A stretch of DNA of 64,000 nt from Ensifer adhaerens (GTDB taxonomy: Bacteria; Pseudomonadota; Alphaproteobacteria; Rhizobiales; Rhizobiaceae), in assembly GCF_000697965.2 (NCBI RefSeq), contig NZ_CP015881.1:248001-312000 (forward strand). The letters run 5' to 3'. This document shows positions 53,364 through 60,996 of this stretch, one piece after another (position 1 is the stretch's first letter; each line of letters starts with the position of its first letter). The notes below the pieces were generated by a model. The model saw nothing but the letters and a program-made list of their open reading frames with translations, searched no databases and was not told the DNA's origin. Position numbers and translations under genes: made by a program.

Positions 53364-54735
53364 AACCTCGCTCTTCTGGCGGCTCGTGCTGCGCGTGGCG
53401 CTGGTGCTTTGTGGTGGTGCGACGCTGCTTTCCGCCGCCGCCTGGTACTATGCCCGCGCGGCCGCCGACGATGCCTATGACCGGCTGCTCCTCGGGGCGG
53501 CGATCCAGATCACTGCGAACATGACTGTGGATGCGGGCAATCTGGGTGTAACGCTTCCGTCGTCGGCCTTCGAGTTGCTCGGCCTTGCCGAGCGCGACCG
53601 CATTTTCTATCGCGTGGTTGGCCCCGACGGCCGAACCTTGACCGGCTACGACGATCTCGAAATCGGCATAAACGTCACCGCGGCGCGGGCCGGCCCGGTG
53701 TTCCTGACGACGGAATATCGCAACGTGCCGGTCCGCGTGGCCGTGGTCTCGCGGGCGCTTTCGGATCCGTCCTTCTCCGGCTGGGCCTATGTGGTCATGG
53801 CGCAGACGACCGAAGCGCGGCGCGGGCTTGCCGGGGAATTGACGACCCGCGCCATGATCCTCGTCGGCATCATGAGCCTGCTTGCGCTTGCCGGCACCGT
53901 GCTTGCCATCCGCTATTCACTGCTGCCCGTCGATGCCCTTGCCGCGACGCTGCGTGCCCGCGATCCGCAGGATCTGACCCCCGTCGAGGCCGACATGCCC
54001 AGGGAGCTCAAGCCTTTCGTCGGGTCGATCAATCACTTCATGGGCCGCCTCGACGAGCGCGTCACCTTGCTTCAGCGCTTCATCGCCGATGCGGCGCATC
54101 AGATACGCACGCCGCTGACAGCCCTTTCGGCACAGGTCGACATGCTCGAAGACGACGACCTCGACGTCAACCGCAAGCGGCATCTCGGGCGCGTGCGGGA
54201 CCGCGTCAGCCAGCTGGCGCGCCTCACCAACCAGTTGCTCAGCCATGCCATGGTCATCCACCGGTCCGATTCCGTGCGCTTCAAGCCCGTCGACCTTGGC
54301 GATATCGCCCGGAAGGCTTTCCGCTCGACGGTGCCGATTACAGTCGACCCGGACGTCGTCGTTTCCTTCGAGGACAGTGCCGAGCCGGTCTTCGTGCGCG
54401 GCGATGCGGTGAGCCTGCGTGAGGCGATAGCCAATATCATCGACAACGCGCTGCAGCATGGTGTCGAGCAACGGCTGGCCGTGCGCGTGAGGCGCGAGGA
54501 TGACCGGGCCCTGGTGGAGGTCGCCGACGACGGTCCCGGCATTCCGCCAGCAGAATGGGCGGCGGTCACGACGCGGTTCGTCAGTTCCAAGACGGGAGAG
54601 GGAAGCATGGGGCTCGGCTTTGCAATCGCGGCGGAGGTGGCGCTGGCGCATCGCGGCACAGTTCGGTTTCTGGAGAAAGGCGGGCGCGACTTCACGGTCA
54701 TTCTCGATGTTCCCCTTTATCGGGAGGGAACATGA
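53350..54735 (+). CDS. tctE: Sensor histidine kinase, TctE-like
   Basis: 461 residues. Two membrane segments (about 12-34 and 165-190) flank a periplasmic sensor of TctE_N type. The dimerisation helix carries the phosphoacceptor His250 in DAAHQIRTPLTALSAQ. The ATPase domain has ANIIDNALQHG (N box), VADDGPGIPP (G1) and GSMGLGFAIAAEVA (G2). It starts inside the response regulator gene and overlaps the downstream binding-protein gene by 4 bases, making a three-gene operon. Confidence 0.92.
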   Translation: MKRRETSLFWRLVLRVALVLCGGATLLSAAAWYYARAAADDAYDRLLLGAAIQITANMTVDAGNLGVTLPSSAFELLGLAERDRIFYRVVGPDGRTLTGYDDLEIGINVTAARAGPVFLTTEYRNVPVRVAVVSRALSDPSFSGWAYVVMAQTTEARRGLAGELTTRAMILVGIMSLLALAGTVLAIRYSLLPVDALAATLRARDPQDLTPVEADMPRELKPFVGSINHFMGRLDERVTLLQRFIADAAHQIRTPLTALSAQVDMLEDDDLDVNRKRHLGRVRDRVSQLARLTNQLLSHAMVIHRSDSVRFKPVDLGDIARKAFRSTVPITVDPDVVVSFEDSAEPVFVRGDAVSLREAIANIIDNALQHGVEQRLAVRVRREDDRALVEVADDGPGIPPAEWAAVTTRFVSSKTGEGSMGLGFAIAAEVALAHRGTVRFLEKGGRDFTVILDVPLYREGT

Positions 54736-55838
54736 GGATGTGGCGGCAACTTCGACCGATCGCACTTGTTGCGGTCCTTGGCTTTGCCAGCCCGGCCGGC
54801 GCGGTCGAGGGCACGCGGGCGTTCTTTCCGGCGCTCGAAGCCGAGCGCGGCCGGCTTGTCATCAACGGCGCGACCGACATCGAGGCGATGGAGCCGCTGA
54901 TCCGCGATTTTCAGGAGACGGCGCGCGATGTCGCCATCGATTATACGGACTACGTGACCAACGATCTCTATCGGGACGCCGACATCGCCTGCCGATTGAA
55001 GCAGCCTTTCGGTGATCTCCTGCTGTCTTCGTCCGTCGATCAGTTGGTGAAGCTTGCAAACGACGGCTGTGCGCTCGCGCATGTCTCGCCGGAAACCCGC
55101 GACGTGCCGGCCTGGGCGAACTGGCGTGACGAGGTCTTCGGCTTTACCTTCGAGCCCTCCGTCATGGTCTACCACAAGGATTTCGTGCCGCCGGAGGATG
55201 TGCCGCACACCCATGGAGAGCTCACCGACCTGCTGCGCTTCAAGCCGGACTATTATCGCGGCCGCATTGGCACCTACGACCTGCGCCAGTCCGGTATCGG
55301 CTATCTGCTCGCCTTCCTCGATGCCCAGCAGGCCTCGACGACCTACGGCCGCCTGCTTGAGAGCCTCAGCCGCGCCGAAGCCGTGCTGCGCTGCTGCAAC
55401 AATGCGGTGTTGTCTGAACTCGACAGCGGCAACGTCTATATCGGCTACAACATCCTCGGCTCCTACGCCTATGCCGCGGCGCGACGTAATGGCAAGCTCA
55501 GGATTGTGCTGCCGCGCGACTACACGCTGATCCTCAGCCGCGGCGCCCTGGTTCCGACGGGCGCCAAGCGCCCCGAGCTTGCCGGTCGCTTCCTCGATTA
55601 TCTGCTGTCCGAACGAGGACAGGACGTGGCACGGGAGAAAGCGTTTTTCTTCTCGCGGAGCGGCGCACTGCCGGCCGAGGTCGACGGACCCGAAAAACTG
55701 GTGGAGTCCGGGATCGGCCGGCCGATCCGGATCGGCCCGGCCTTGCTTGCCGCGCAGGACCGGCTGCAGCGCTCCCGGTTCATTGACGACTGGACCAAGT
55801 TGATCGTCGATACCCCGGTTCGGCTGCGCCCGAATTGA
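54732..55838 (+). CDS. Periplasmic extracellular solute-binding protein linked to TctDE
   Basis: 368 residues from ATG 54732 in the ATGA overlap. The signal peptide ends PAGAVEG. The body is a type II solute-binding protein (LVINGATDIEAMEPLIRDFQ, VFGFTFEPSVMVYHKDFVPPE, TYDLRQSGIGYLLAFLDAQQ), resembling the iron/thiamine-like SBP class rather than TctC. Two adjacent cysteines (LRCCNNAVL) are unusual. With no transporter genes beside it, it may present a ligand to the TctE-like sensor. The role is inferred from the coupling. Confidence 0.8.
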   Translation: MRMWRQLRPIALVAVLGFASPAGAVEGTRAFFPALEAERGRLVINGATDIEAMEPLIRDFQETARDVAIDYTDYVTNDLYRDADIACRLKQPFGDLLLSSSVDQLVKLANDGCALAHVSPETRDVPAWANWRDEVFGFTFEPSVMVYHKDFVPPEDVPHTHGELTDLLRFKPDYYRGRIGTYDLRQSGIGYLLAFLDAQQASTTYGRLLESLSRAEAVLRCCNNAVLSELDSGNVYIGYNILGSYAYAAARRNGKLRIVLPRDYTLILSRGALVPTGAKRPELAGRFLDYLLSERGQDVAREKAFFFSRSGALPAEVDGPEKLVESGIGRPIRIGPALLAAQDRLQRSRFIDDWTKLIVDTPVRLRPN

Positions 55839-55883: not shown

Positions 55884-56393
55884 CTATCGCTCGCCCTTGC
55901 GCCAGGCGCACAGTGCGTGGTCCAGTGACAGACTGCCGGGACCGGAGGTCATCAGCGCGAGCGCCATGGCAGCCCAGGTGATGTGGATGGGCCAGCCGTC
56001 CGGTACGGTCAGCTGCACAACAATCGTCAGGACCAGCAGCCCGAGGGCGGCAAAACGCGTTCCCAGGCCGAAGACAAGCAAGATGGGAAGAATGATTTCC
56101 GCCGAACCGGCGGCAAAGGCCGTCACGGCGGGAGCCGGATAGGGATAGGGGCCGCCGGGTAGATGCAGCCGGAATTCCGAGCTGAACAGCAGGACCGCCA
56201 CGTCGTTCAATTGCAGGAACCCGTCCCACTTGCTCATGCCTGACCGAAAGAAGGGAACGGCAAGGCCGAAACGCAGGACAAGCTGGGAGAGCCAGAGCGG
56301 CGCGAGCGCGCCGACGGCTCGGTTCGCCCGACGGGTCCATTGCGACAGATCGGCTGTGTGGCCGTTTTGCGAAAATCTGGATGCGGACATCAT
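55884..56393 (-). CDS. DoxX-family membrane protein of bufferin operon
   Basis: 169 residues from ATG 56393, with GGAGG 8 bases upstream. Four hydrophobic segments after a 40-residue polar N-terminus; DoxX signatures VLRFGLAVPFFRSGMSKWDGF and FAAGSAEIILPILLVFGLGTRFAALGL. It is last in the four-gene operon with bufC-, bufB- and bufA-type genes, the usual location of DoxX in bufferin operons. It likely acts in the inner membrane on redox state or metal handling; not proven. Confidence 0.88.
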   Translation of the reverse strand: MMSASRFSQNGHTADLSQWTRRANRAVGALAPLWLSQLVLRFGLAVPFFRSGMSKWDGFLQLNDVAVLLFSSEFRLHLPGGPYPYPAPAVTAFAAGSAEIILPILLVFGLGTRFAALGLLVLTIVVQLTVPDGWPIHITWAAMALALMTSGPGSLSLDHALCAWRKGER

Positions 56394-56397
56394 GGTT

Positions 56398-57201
56398 TCA
56401 TCCTCCGTGATGAGTTGCCGTAAAGGCACCGGCTTCGAGCGCGGTGGCGATTGCGGCTGCGAGATCAAGCGTGGGGCATTGCGTGGCAGCATCCGCAGCA
56501 GCCGCGGCGAGGGGGATGCCTGCCAGCAGCCGCGAAAGCAGAAGATCGGCGCCGGGCGCGAGACGGCGAACGATGACCTCCAGGTCGGGGCGGGTGATCA
56601 GCGCGCTCTCCGCATCAGCCGTTTCGATTCGTCCGACCGGCCCGCTCTCGCGGTTGACGGCAAAGATCGTGACGGCCGGATAATCGGAACGGACAAGCCT
56701 GGTCGCCGGATGCGGATCGAAGACGACGCCGCCGAGCTGCTCGGGCGCAATCAGGGAAAGTGCAGAAGGCGGAAGCGCCGGGGCGTCGGCGGCGTGATAG
56801 GCGTCGAGCCAGGCCCGTTCGATCCTTGCTACATCGGCAAGCCATGGCATGGATTGGGCATACTCGTAGCGGGCAATGGAACCCGGAAAGTCGCGGCCAT
56901 ATTCGAAGAGCAGCGGCGAGACTGGCGGTGTTTCGCGCACGTGAAAGCGGGCCATGGCGCGAAAGAAAGCTTCGCCGGTAATGCGTTCGGTCGCCGGGAA
57001 GGTCGCCGCCAGCGCTTCGATCAGGCTGACGGTGACGTTGTTGCGGTAGACATTGAAGCGCTTCACCGCCGCCTTGCCGTTCGGGCCGGCGACCAGAGCC
57101 GGCGTCGGCCGGTCAGGTGCGAGCAGCGGCGGCACGAAACCGGCGGCATAATTGCCGATGCGGTCAAGAGGCATGGGGAGCATGCCTTCAGGCGCGGACA
57201 C
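56398..57201 (-). CDS. bufC: DUF2063 protein, BufC/HvfC-type partner of MNIO enzyme
   Basis: 267 residues from GTG 57201, which overlaps the DUF692 stop by 14 bases and is preceded by GGGAGAATATCC; an internal ATG at 57183 is the alternative. The N-terminal domain (KRFNVYRNNVTVSLIEALAATFPATERITGEAFFRAMARFHV) is the conserved DUF2063 segment of BufC/HvfC/MbnC-like partners. These proteins bind the precursor and the DUF692 enzyme during peptide modification (family knowledge). Next gene is DoxX, 4 bases on. Confidence 0.87.
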   Translation of the reverse strand: MSAPEGMLPMPLDRIGNYAAGFVPPLLAPDRPTPALVAGPNGKAAVKRFNVYRNNVTVSLIEALAATFPATERITGEAFFRAMARFHVRETPPVSPLLFEYGRDFPGSIARYEYAQSMPWLADVARIERAWLDAYHAADAPALPPSALSLIAPEQLGGVVFDPHPATRLVRSDYPAVTIFAVNRESGPVGRIETADAESALITRPDLEVIVRRLAPGADLLLSRLLAGIPLAAAAADAATQCPTLDLAAAIATALEAGAFTATHHGG

Positions 57202-58129
57202 GGATATTCTCCCGCGGCATCCGCTGCCCGTAGGCATCGAGGATCGTCTGCGCCGCAGTGGCCTCGCGTTTCAAGACCGGCCAGTCCGGAATGGCACTGT
57301 CCCACTCGATCAGCGTCGGGATGGCGCCGACGCGGGCGATGACGATGTCGTAGAGTTTCCAGACGGCGTCGGCAACCGGCCCGTCATGGCTGTCGATCAG
57401 GAGCAGGTCGCCTTCGTCGTCTTGCTGCTCCGCATGCCCGGCAAGGTGGATTTCTCCGACATGTTCAAGTGGGAAGTCATCGAGATAGGCAAGCGCCGAA
57501 TAGCCCTGGTTGGTGGCGGAAACGAAGACATTGTTGATGTCGAGCAGCAGCCCGCAGCCGGTGCGCTTCACCAGTTCTCGGATGAATACCGTTTCGCTCA
57601 TCGTCGAATCCTGGAAGGTGACGTAGGTCGACGGGTTTTCGAGCAGCAGCCGGCGGCCGATCGCGTCCTGGACCTCGTCGATATGATCGGATACGCGGGC
57701 AACGGTGGCCTCGGTGTAGGGCAGCGGCAAGAGATCGTTGTAGAAGGTGGTCTCGTGGGTCGACCAGGCGAGATGCTCGGAGACGAGGGCCGGTTCATAG
57801 CGGTCGACCAGTGCCTTGAACCGCCCCAGGTGCGCCTTGTCGAGTGGCTGTGGGCCGCCGATCGACATGGAGACACCATGCAGAGACACCGGAAAATCCT
57901 GGCGAATGCGGGCGAGCGCCGCATGCGGCGGTCCGCCGGCACCCATGTAGTTCTCCGCATGAATTTCGAAGAAGCCGCCGCAGGCATCATCGGCAAGGAT
58001 CGCCTGGAGGTGCTGATGCTTGAAGCTCGTTCCGGCGAGCCCGGCGATTTCGTGTTTCGGCAGGTGAGGACCTACCGGGGCAAGTCTGCTGCCGTCGTCC
58101 GTTGATGTGCGCATTGCCAATCCCGTCAT
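57188..58129 (-). CDS. bufB: MNIO-family (DUF692) peptide-modifying oxidase, BufB-type
   Basis: 313 residues; multinuclear non-heme iron oxidase of the MbnB/BufB family that modifies Cys residues of RiPP precursors. Metal-ligand stretches are seen in order: FFEIHAENYM, HGVSMSIGG, LVSEHLAWSTHETTF, LLLDINNVFVSA, GEIHLAGHAEQ and IDSHDGPV. Length is normal. It is encoded between the precursor (bufA) and its partner (bufC). A Met codon 5 residues in (58114) is an alternative start. Expected reaction: oxidation of precursor cysteines to a thiooxazole-type heterocycle that binds copper, by analogy with Caulobacter bufferins. Confidence 0.93.
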   Translation of the reverse strand: MTGLAMRTSTDDGSRLAPVGPHLPKHEIAGLAGTSFKHQHLQAILADDACGGFFEIHAENYMGAGGPPHAALARIRQDFPVSLHGVSMSIGGPQPLDKAHLGRFKALVDRYEPALVSEHLAWSTHETTFYNDLLPLPYTEATVARVSDHIDEVQDAIGRRLLLENPSTYVTFQDSTMSETVFIRELVKRTGCGLLLDINNVFVSATNQGYSALAYLDDFPLEHVGEIHLAGHAEQQDDEGDLLLIDSHDGPVADAVWKLYDIVIARVGAIPTLIEWDSAIPDWPVLKREATAAQTILDAYGQRMPRENIRVRA

Positions 58130-58194
58130 AATCCTGAGACCCTGGATGGCGGGTGGGAACGTCCCTGGACCGCTACCCCTTGAAAACCGAGGCG

Positions 58195-58227
58195 GAACGG
58201 GACGCGATCGCCCCGCGTCCCGTTCCT
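58195..58227 (-). terminator. Attenuator-type hairpin between bufA and bufB
   Basis: Perfect 13-bp stem GGAACGGGACGCG / CGCGTCCCGTTCC with a 7-base loop, followed on the minus strand by GCCTCGGTTTTC. It starts 13 bases after the precursor stop and lies before bufB, a place where partial termination would make precursor mRNA more abundant than enzyme mRNA. Confidence 0.7.
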
Positions 58228-58240
58228 GAATTGCGATCGA

Positions 58241-58567
58241 TCAGGACGGCATGTCGCGCGAAAGCGCCTCGGGCGAACCCATGCGGCCGTCGGGCAGCTT
58301 CATCGTCGTGCAGGTGCCGCCGTCGACGAATTTCCAGGCATTGCCCTGATAGTCGACGGTGGATGTTGCCTGGCACGTCGTGCCCGGGCCGGCGGCGCAA
58401 TCGTTCTGGCCCTTGAGCGCGACGCCGAAGCATTTCTCCTTGCCGGCATCCATGGCGGACTTGACCTGCGCTTCAGTCAGTGGGCTCGCAACCGCGAGCG
58501 ACGACAGGGCGGCGGCGACCGCGCTTGCCAGCATTGCGCTGCTGATCGTGGACTTCATGGACATCAT
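58241..58567 (-). CDS. bufA: Bufferin-type RiPP metallophore precursor (DUF2282)
   Basis: 108 residues from ATG 58567 (GGAGATAAT upstream). Residues 1-28 form a long Sec signal peptide ending LAVASP, so the product is periplasmic. The core has four Cys in the DUF2282 pattern: EKCFGVA (Cys46), NDCAAG (Cys57), TTCQAT (Cys65) and GTCTTM (Cys86), with the conserved [11 protein letters not shown]. In Caulobacter, DUF2282 precursors are modified by the DUF692 enzyme into copper-binding bufferins that protect the periplasm. First gene of the operon, behind an ECF-type promoter. Confidence 0.93.
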
Positions 58568-58623
58568 ATTATCTCCGTGTTGAACTGTTCCCGTGCGTCC
58601 TGTCTGAGGCGCACATCGGGTCT

Positions 58624-58649
58624 TTCGCCGCGGCGACACCGGGCGTTAC
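58624..58649 (-). promoter_or_regulatory. SigF-type ECF promoter of the bufferin operon
   Basis: On the minus strand GTAACG, exactly 16 bases, then CGAA. The Caulobacter SigF consensus is GTAACC-N16-CGAA, so five of six -35 bases, the spacing and the -10 all match. The -10 lies 57 bases before the bufA start. The cognate sigma gene is divergent and adjacent. Confidence 0.75.
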
Positions 58650-58729
58650 ATAACGTTGGCAACACGCTTTCGTGATGGGCTCGCGAGGTCGGTCTGAGCA
58701 GACAGCGGCCGCGAATTTGAGATAGCCGT

Positions 58730-58754
58730 GTAACAAACGCCGGGAATCGGCGAA
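58730..58754 (+). promoter_or_regulatory. Candidate autoregulatory ECF promoter of the sigma gene
   Basis: GTAACA and CGAA separated by 15 bases, one fewer than at the bufA promoter. It ends 18 bases before the GTG start, leaving a short leader that still includes the GGGAAGGAAAGG ribosome site. Good motif but non-ideal spacing. Confidence 0.5.
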
Positions 58755-58772
58755 TGGGAAGGAAAGGCGCGG

Positions 58773-59309
58773 GTGAGCGGCGCGGACGACGAACATCTCG
58801 CAAGACTTCTCCGCGCGGCCGTGGCCGGCGACGAAAAAGCCTATGCCGACTTCCTGCGGGACGCAGCGCAGGCGATCCGTGGTTGGGCCCGACGTTGGAC
58901 CATCGGCGGAGGCGTCGATGCTGAGGACGTCGTGCAGGAGGCGCTGCTGGCAGTGCACGTCAAGCGCCACACCTGGCGGGAGGATGCGCCGGTCATACCG
59001 TGGCTGCATGCCATTGCCAGGCACAAATACGTCGATGCCGTGCGTCGTCAGGCTCGCCGCCCGACGGTCGGCATTGAGGGGCTTGAAGACACGCTGGCAA
59101 GCGTCGAGACGGAAAAGGCCAGGGATTGGGAAATCGGCCGGGCGCTGGAAGGGCTGGCACCTGGGCAGCGCTCAGTGGTCAACGCGATTTCGATCGAGGG
59201 TTTCACGGTGGCTGAGACGGCGCAGAAACTGGACATGAATGAAACGGCGGTTCGGGTGGCGCTTCACCGAGGCCTTGCTGCAATCGCCCGCCGATTTGGA
59301 CGAAACTGA
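58773..59309 (+). CDS. sigF: ECF-family RNA polymerase sigma factor, SigF-type
   Basis: 178 residues from GTG 58773 (AAGGAAAGG upstream). Sigma-2 region: WARRWTIGGGVDAEDVVQEALLAVHVKRHTWRED and PWLHAIARHKYVDAVRRQARR. Sigma-4 region: LEGLAPGQRSVVNAISIEGFTVAETAQKLDMNETAVRVALHRGLAAIAR. Followed 2 bases later by the anti-sigma gene and divergent from the bufferin operon. In Caulobacter this sigma/anti-sigma type responds to copper and other metals and turns on bufferin genes. Confidence 0.92.
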   Translation: MSGADDEHLARLLRAAVAGDEKAYADFLRDAAQAIRGWARRWTIGGGVDAEDVVQEALLAVHVKRHTWREDAPVIPWLHAIARHKYVDAVRRQARRPTVGIEGLEDTLASVETEKARDWEIGRALEGLAPGQRSVVNAISIEGFTVAETAQKLDMNETAVRVALHRGLAAIARRFGRN

Positions 59310-59311
59310 CC

Positions 59312-59950
59312 ATGGACACGAACGACCTCATCAAGGCTCTCGCAGCGGACAATCGGCGACCCGGCCTGCCGATGAACACCGTATGGTCCGGCGTCGCCAT
59401 CGGCGCACTCGTCCTTGCCGGTGTCGTGTTCTCGATCCTGCTCGGGCCGCGGCCGGATATCGCCGCTGCCGCCGAGACGGTGCGGTTCCTGTTCAAATTC
59501 GTGGTGACTATCGCGCTCGCCACGGCCGCTTTTGCGGCCATGCGCGTTGCCGCATGGCCCGACGCGGATCCGCGCAAGCTGGTGCCCTACCTTGCCGTCG
59601 CGCCGGCGCTCGTTGTCGGCGGTGTGTTGCTCGAGCTTCTTGCAGTGCCATCCGGTAGCTGGGTGACGAAACTCGTTGGAACCAACTATTTGGTCTGCAT
59701 GACCTTCATTCCGCTGATCGGCCTTGCGCCCTTGGCGCTGTTCCTTCTCGCACTGCGCCATGGCGCCCCGTCGCGTCCCGGGCTTGCAGGCGCCCTGGCA
59801 GGGCTCGCGGCCGGCGGCATCGCCGCGACCTTCTACGCGGCCCACTGCCCGGACGATTCACCGCTTTTCGTCGCGACCTGGTACACGATCGCGGTCCTCA
59901 TGCTGACGGTGCTTGGGGCGTTGGGCGGCCGTTGGGCGCTTCGCTGGTAG
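59312..59950 (+). CDS. nrsF: NrsF-type (DUF1109) membrane anti-sigma factor
   Basis: 212 residues, about six membrane segments after a short cytoplasmic N-terminus (TNDLIKALAADNRRPGLPMNTVWSGV). DUF1109 features include RVAAWPDADPRKLVPYLAVAPALVVGG and a GTNYLVCMTFIPLIGLAPLALFLLALRHGAP loop. Cys is present in NYLVCMTFIP and AAHCPDD, consistent with the metal/thiol-sensing idea for NrsF. It holds the SigF-type factor inactive at the membrane until stress (family knowledge). Confidence 0.9.
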   Translation: MDTNDLIKALAADNRRPGLPMNTVWSGVAIGALVLAGVVFSILLGPRPDIAAAAETVRFLFKFVVTIALATAAFAAMRVAAWPDADPRKLVPYLAVAPALVVGGVLLELLAVPSGSWVTKLVGTNYLVCMTFIPLIGLAPLALFLLALRHGAPSRPGLAGALAGLAAGGIAATFYAAHCPDDSPLFVATWYTIAVLMLTVLGALGGRWALRW

Positions 59951-60204: not shown

Positions 60205-60996
60205 CTAGCAATGAATGCTGACGCCGTGTTCGCGCAGTAGCGAGACGAGACGCTCCTCCGGCAATTCATTGGTTACCAGCGCATCGATATCGGCAAGCGA
60301 AGCCAGGCGCACCAGCGCACGCCGGCCAAACTTGCTGCTGTCGACGGCGAGGATCACCCGCTCGGCCTGGCGCATTGCGGCCGAGACGGCGGCGACTTCG
60401 GCATGGTCGTCGTCGCCGATATCGCCGTCCTGATCGATGCCGCTGACCGAGATGATGGCGACGTCGAATTTGAACTTGCGGATATAGTCGGCGGTCTCCT
60501 CGCGAAACACGCCGGCATCCACTTGCCGCACGAAGCCGCCGGGCACCGCGACGGCAAAGCTGCTGCTTTCGCTGAGCGTGGTTGCGACGCGCAGACTGTA
60601 GGTGACGACACGAAGATCGCGGCGCTTGAGCAGGCCGCGCGCCACCGCTTCGCAGGTCGTGCCGGTGTCGAGGAAGACGGCAGCGCCGTCGGCAACAAGC
60701 TCGGCGGTCAGTTGCCCGATGCGTTCCTTCACCTCCGCGTTGTCGATGCGCCGTTGGCGGTAGATGTTGGGATCAACCGGGGTCGCAATGGTCGCGCCGC
60801 CGTGCAGGCGCCGCACCTTGCCCTCCTGTTCGAGCGCCATGATATCGCGCCGTGCCGTCTGGGTGGTGACGCCGAACAGGCCGGTGATCTCCTCGATCGA
60901 GATATAGTGGTTCTTCTCGAGGTGGCTGAGAAGCTGCGCCTGCCGGCGCGTCTTCTTGTCCCCATCCGCAATATCCCGATCGTCCATCACCCTCAT
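60205..60996 (-). CDS. DeoR-family transcriptional regulator
   Basis: 263 residues. The N-terminal helix-turn-helix is LLSHLEKNHYISIEEITGLFGVTTQTARRDIMALEQEGKVRRLHGGA, a standard DeoR signature. The sugar-phosphate-binding C-terminal domain has IFLDTGTTCEAVARGLL-like, PGGFVRQVDAGVF and AVDSSKFGRRALVRL phrases. It is divergent from the autotransporter gene with 239 bases between starts. DeoR proteins usually respond to sugar phosphates; the regulated gene here is probably itself and/or the autotransporter. Confidence 0.9.
   Translation of the reverse strand: MRVMDDRDIADGDKKTRRQAQLLSHLEKNHYISIEEITGLFGVTTQTARRDIMALEQEGKVRRLHGGATIATPVDPNIYRQRRIDNAEVKERIGQLTAELVADGAAVFLDTGTTCEAVARGLLKRRDLRVVTYSLRVATTLSESSSFAVAVPGGFVRQVDAGVFREETADYIRKFKFDVAIISVSGIDQDGDIGDDDHAEVAAVSAAMRQAERVILAVDSSKFGRRALVRLASLADIDALVTNELPEERLVSLLREHGVSIHC

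Follow-up and report, generated by a model that had tools for sequence, protein, structure and literature searches.

The window analyzed in this study, a stretch of 64,000 nucleotides from Ensifer adhaerens (contig NZ_CP015881.1, positions 248,001 to 312,000 of the forward strand), contains at positions 55884-59950 a six-gene locus that is very probably a Buf1-type bufferin operon equipped with its own switch: a sigma factor of the extracytoplasmic function (ECF) group ECF16 (SigF/RpoE7 type) and its membrane anti-sigma factor NrsF. All six genes are as described in the original prediction, which had claimed a complete bufferin operon (a DUF2282 precursor with four Cys, an MNIO enzyme, a DUF2063 partner and DoxX), a divergent SigF/NrsF-type switch, and a GTAACG-N16-CGAA site before the precursor. 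Family models recover each of the operon proteins, Sigma70_r2/r4_2 and PF06532 identify the switch on the plus strand, and the promoter word is present and kept in related loci. A second site in front of sigF and a hairpin after bufA went unmentioned in that prediction. The features of the locus are as follows:

55884..56393, minus strand: doxX, DoxX-family membrane protein, last operon gene (PF07681, 60.7 bits, above cut-off)
56398..57237, minus strand: bufC, DUF2063 partner protein (PF09836, 78.5 bits, above cut-off)
57188..58129, minus strand: bufB, MNIO maturase (PF05114, 349.4 bits; NCBIfam MNIO_BufB NF050167, 381.1 bits, cut-off 310)
58194..58226, minus strand: strong hairpin predicted in the RNA between bufA and bufB, with a stem of 14 bp and a loop of 5 nt, 14 nt past the bufA stop, no canonical U-tract
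58241..58567, minus strand: bufA, Buf1-type (DUF2282) bufferin precursor of 108 aa with exactly four Cys (PF10048, 79.4 bits, cut-off 22.4)
58624..58649, minus strand: GTAACG-N16-CGAA, SigF-type promoter driving the buf genes, ~56 nt upstream of the bufA start (sequence, genome scan, conserved in relatives)
58730..58754, plus strand: GTAACA-N15-CGAA, SigF-type promoter for autoregulation of sigF-nrsF, 18 nt upstream of the sigF start (sequence, genome scan, conserved in relatives)
58773..59309, plus strand: sigF-like ECF sigma factor gene with GTG start (Sigma70_r2 and r4_2; NF009165, 221.8 bits, cut-off 198)
59312..59950, plus strand: nrsF, membrane anti-sigma factor (NrsF/DUF1109) with Cys129 and Cys179 (PF06532, 179.7 bits)

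The operon and its divergent switch

The genes bufA, bufB, bufC and doxX are read in this order from the minus strand, and a gap of 205 bp separates bufA from the divergent pair sigF-nrsF. The last three operon genes abut or overlap, and 111 nt lie between bufA and bufB; the true start of bufC is probably the ATG at 57183, immediately past the bufB stop. The four Cys columns of BufA are conserved in 78, 78, 79 and 79 of 79 related DUF2282 domains, and its N-terminus, judged by eye only, is a predicted signal peptide with a hydrophobic stretch and a cleavage site between AVA and SP. The sequence of BufB matches the solved MNIO 3bww and the protein of 8hci/8hi7, the latter structure (8hi7) being named as that of the partner of TglI (PMC12452194). 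For BufC, a phmmer search found no relative of solved structure. In NrsF, Cys129 is conserved in 27/27 and Cys179 in 25/27 related proteins, and the two residues correspond to two Cys that matter in Caulobacter NrsF (PMC3511200). The genes for MNIO, DUF2282 and NrsF are each present in a single copy in the genome (7.27 Mb, 3 contigs searched), all of them at this locus; in this sense the system is self-contained, as had been claimed.

Both Caulobacter and Sinorhizobium are known to have this arrangement, and it has been tested in part there; the hairpin is possibly a new part. The locus sigF-nrsF/CC3254-CC3257 of Caulobacter vibrioides (bufferin 1) resembles the present one in its six genes and their order, in the promoter word, and in the two Cys of NrsF. 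Control of CC3252-3257 by SigF via GTAACC-N16-CGAA was shown there with a sigF mutant, 5' rapid amplification of cDNA ends (5'RACE), and lacZ fusions (PMC3511200). In Caulobacter, SigF also controls a further MNIO cluster (CC2907-2905) and has msrPQ as a target, whereas our host genome contains one MNIO gene. The closer counterpart in the sister genus, RpoE7-EcfR7/SMb20527-SMb20530 of Sinorhizobium meliloti (ECF16), consists of the same genes (BufB 76% identical over 93% of its length) and has both promoters, in which GTAAC and CGAA are separated by 17 and 16 bases; the promoter sequences listed for it match the present ones, spacers included, and overexpression of RpoE7 raises SMb20530/29/28/27 by log2 6.8/6.2/5.1/4.7 (PMC6180224). 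It differs from the present locus by the lack of a hairpin after bufA and by a shorter gap between bufA and the BufB domain (102 nt vs 196 nt here). Since the S. meliloti orthologue is RpoE7 of group ECF16, a sulfite-responsive system of the RpoE1/RpoE4 type was considered and dropped.

Among other clusters, sigma and NrsF genes are reported to occur in Buf1 and not in Buf2 clusters, and the gold-induced gene (gig) clusters of Cupriavidus metallidurans and Legionella are named bufferin clusters (PMC12452194). Bufferin-like products have been grouped as captophorins; captophorins of the oxazolin type (EGKCG type, HvfABC) share with our locus an MNIO enzyme, a DUF2063 partner and the thiooxazole class (PMC13097082), but have a repeat-Cys precursor in place of DUF2282. 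The HvfB and HvfC models score under their cut-offs at the buf locus, and DoxX reaches 62.6 bits on the HvfX-family model NF050144, under the cut-off of 80.

The two promoter sites carry weight by their place and conservation. At the two genome-wide rates given below, 0.001-0.003 sites are expected in both strands of the 205-bp gap, and two are observed, both correctly oriented. For comparison we used 95 related loci, after exclusion of 17 (L001-L005, L086-L097) that were short or duplicate. Removing redundancy at 90% BufB identity leaves 73 of them, and in 71 the retrieved sequence includes bufA. When any third base of the -10 word is allowed, the site stands upstream of bufA in 24/24 non-redundant loci with a divergent sigF, and in 21/24 it also stands upstream of sigF (missing in L039, L060 and L078). 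The strict CGAA word read backwards occurs in 0/93 stretches upstream of bufA. Furthermore, the third -10 base matches between the two sites in 20 of the 21 loci (15 CGAA/CGAA, 5 CGTA/CGTA, 1 mixed, L038), an agreement with a Fisher value of 0.0003, which, given the relatedness of the loci, should not be read as a strict probability. Nineteen sequence columns separate the sigma factors of 7 CGTA loci from those of 30 CGAA loci; because these groups may simply be clades, we make no claim on specificity from these columns.

Some loci deviate from the common layout. Seven (L100, L101, L107, L052, L055, L063, L064) have two bufA-like frames, with CGTA before sigF in 7/7 and before bufA in 6/7 (none in L063); two such frames are also found in L039 and L062, but with CGAA. 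In Ensifer sp. LCM 4579 (L010:3782-5149), a TadG-like gene, recognized by eye, lies between sigF-nrsF and bufA, and both SigF-type sites are retained. In L019, L021-L024 and L034, sigF-nrsF is located on the same strand downstream of doxX; the bufA site was found in L021-L024 and L034 but not in L019, and the same-strand sigF genes of these six loci have no strict CGAA site directly before them.

Several observations weigh against the interpretation as a Buf1 operon under its own SigF switch. On the NCBIfam BufA2 model NF050166, bufA scores 19.8 bits (cut-off 60), and nrsF reaches 109.9 bits on the AntiSigF_NrsF equivalog NF042994 (cut-off 300); judging by the latter score, nrsF belongs to the wider Pfam NrsF family and not to the narrow equivalog. 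The redundant divergent-sigF locus L063 lacks a site before bufA. Moreover, GTAAC-N16/17-CGAA is not enriched genome-wide, with 33 sites vs 114 for the backward control in 7.27 Mb, hence the bare motif by itself proves nothing. A wider SigF regulon in the host genome was rejected, as there is no motif enrichment and no site near the four PF00174 genes, in a scan that covered the CGAA word, not CGTA, and left its sites without individual annotation.

Loci without an adjacent switch provide a further comparison. Of 43 non-redundant loci whose retrieved sequence contains no sigF, 9 carry the bufA site. For those with a site, an NrsF gene was found elsewhere in the genome in 8/8 tested cases (in L016 on the same contig), with L054 (CGGA word) outside the test; for those without, NrsF was found in 2/20 (L042, weak with 67 bits, and L076, 240 bits), a co-occurrence with a hypergeometric probability of ~1.4e-5. 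The 20 site-less loci include three redundant ones and L051, where another sigma gene lies close by. Nine of 12 distant NrsF places were examined: sigF adjoins in 8/9, with a site before it in 7/8, and the -10 word of the distant sigF is that of bufA in 6/7 genomes, the exception being L026 (CGTA vs CGAA). Within the genus, 3/16 members lack MNIO, and those three also lack NrsF. The co-occurrence of site and NrsF, the agreeing distant -10 words, and the lack of NrsF in the MNIO-less genus members suggest that both sites are read by a single sigma factor and that retention of the bufA site is largely confined to genomes possessing the switch. The search found no sigF next to the bufA gene of Ensifer sp. 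LC163, only a short nrsF-like remnant (L014:5096-5428) adjoining an intact bufA promoter site; another sigF-nrsF pair occurs elsewhere in this genome (L128), without a site before its sigF.

Proposed mechanism and inducing signal

By analogy with studied relatives, from which sigma dependence, copper response, chemistry and export are taken, the system could operate as follows. At rest, NrsF would keep the sigma factor tethered to the inner membrane, until a thiol-reactive metal, most likely copper, acts on the two conserved Cys of NrsF. The sigma factor thus set free would then read both divergent promoters and raise expression of bufABC-doxX and sigF-nrsF. BufB together with BufC would oxidize the two central Cys of BufA to thiooxazoles, and the peptide, exported by Sec, would chelate copper in the periplasm; both the position of the thiooxazoles and the copper binding are assumed from relatives. 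The hairpin after bufA may raise the level of precursor mRNA over that of the maturase. The roles of the hairpin and of DoxX are conjectural.

Copper is likely the main signal and cargo in this host, as the studied relatives indicate. In Caulobacter, copper induces the corresponding genes by log2 4.2 to 6.3 in M2G, and a sigF mutant is copper-sensitive (PMC8224329). Two published results speak against copper. In S. meliloti, rpoE7 and SMb20530 fusions were unresponsive to H2O2, CdCl2 and K2CrO4, copper not being among the compounds named there (PMC6180224), and the signal may therefore differ from that in Caulobacter. In C. metallidurans CH34, the related gig cluster is reported to leave copper resistance unchanged, possibly because other systems mask its contribution (PMC8224329). 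Because of the silence with K2CrO4, induction by chromate, which had been proposed together with copper and gold as a check of the original prediction, is a weak test, and copper appears to be the better bet as inducer.

A distinctly less probable explanation keeps the same operon and switch but assumes a signal other than copper, namely thiol stress, be it oxidative, caused by reactive sulfur or of another kind; DoxX and the bufferin would then act in sulfur or redox protection. The silence of the S. meliloti fusions with cadmium and chromate would fit this assumption, DoxX and a YedY-type oxidoreductase point to sulfur metabolism (PMC3511200), and in Caulobacter the loss of sigF impairs cells under oxidative stress in stationary phase (PMC8224329). 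However, H2O2 was without effect in S. meliloti as well, the Caulobacter regulon is copper-induced and loss of sigF there leads to copper sensitivity, and in our host genome each of the 33 motif sites is at least ~25 kb away from every PF00174 oxidoreductase gene (four in total), which leaves an msrP link unsupported for the CGAA word.

The predicted hairpin behind bufA

The minimum free energy of the predicted hairpin is -32.4 kcal/mol, compared with a mean of -21.2 for shuffled sequences (z -4.15); for the entire gap the values are -51.8 and -40.1. Three close relatives have hairpins with z -4.0 to -4.3. Across the 71 non-redundant operons, an extreme hairpin (p<0.01, dinucleotide shuffling) occurs within the first 65 nt past bufA in 33, while the same test yields 1/71 inside bufB and 2/71 inside bufA. 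In a second run with fewer shuffles (p<=0.01), hairpins were found in 29/71 bufA-bufB gaps, 13/97 other co-directional gaps and 7/43 convergent gaps. Counted by a score of at least 17, a threshold chosen after the results of the first run, the numbers are 33/71, 12/97 and 7/43 (Fisher ~1e-6 vs co-directional gaps); the control genes were delimited only roughly, by taking the longest open frames. By eye, the hairpin stems are unrelated in sequence between lineages.

We consider it possible, at somewhat less than even confidence, that the hairpin has a role. In that case it probably raises the precursor over the maturase mRNA by stabilization or processing, favored over termination because a T-run is missing, by eye, from most tails and this hairpin was not picked up by the terminator scan. 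In the puf operon of Rhodobacter, mRNA stabilization or processing gives rise to differing levels within one operon. A further-reaching proposal, which we put forward only tentatively, is that of an undescribed RNA element: a hairpin 3' of bufA, repeatedly arising with unrelated sequence, would set a large excess of precursor and, together with the in-step change of the -10 words, make the bufferin switch a compact co-evolving cassette. In a limited literature collection, we found no paper that joins bufferin, MNIO and stem-loop, and the words 'hairpin', 'terminator' and 'promoter' are absent from the main text of PMC12452194.

Two alternatives have to be considered. The hairpin could be a terminator, possibly a partial one, or an attenuator, so that bufBC-doxX would be reached by read-through only. 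The strong GC-rich stem and a tail containing TTTT would be in line with this, but a canonical terminator was rejected here: the terminator scan did not list the hairpin, and the hairpins of most relatives have, by eye, no T-rich tail. We therefore regard termination as rather unlikely. The second alternative is a chance structure, or one common in high-GC intergenic gaps, with no role. Structures of the same score do occur behind 12/97 other co-directional genes. S. meliloti has no hairpin (z +0.4) and several close relatives have a weak one or none, and covariation among five close Ensifer is weak, with one double change that was matched by 101/500 shuffles; these observations weigh against a role. 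The excess behind bufA over other co-directional gaps, by score as well as by shuffling, the near absence of such structures inside bufB and bufA, and the unrelated stems of different lineages argue the other way, and we hold a chance origin to be doubtful.

Genomic setting and significance

BufB shows 100% identity to part of a replicon of Ensifer adhaerens Casida A-T305 that measures 1.74 Mb and was deposited as a plasmid; the locus thus probably sits on a large secondary replicon of the host. Its flanks (window positions 54555-55838 and 60205-60996) encode an extracellular solute-binding protein and a DeoR-type regulator with no evident tie to the bufferin genes. The rhizobial host that had been proposed was borne out, and such a home is common for a bufferin locus: DUF2282 is present in 132/247 Rhizobiaceae genomes sampled, and the orthologous locus of S. 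meliloti was described in 2018 (PMC6180224), hence the setting is not unusual. NrsF occurs in 88/247 of these genomes (86 above cut-off).

The locus provides a clean rhizobial example of a probably copper-buffering system of ribosomally synthesized and post-translationally modified peptides in a tractable soil bacterium. It bears on the signal of NrsF: the SigF regulon of Caulobacter answers to copper, chromate and cadmium, and the S. meliloti fusions are silent with chromate, cadmium and peroxide. Natural promoter pairs with CGAA or CGTA could serve to map how sigma factors of this group recognize the -10 word, and the hairpin suggests a testable reason for the stoichiometry of precursor to enzyme.

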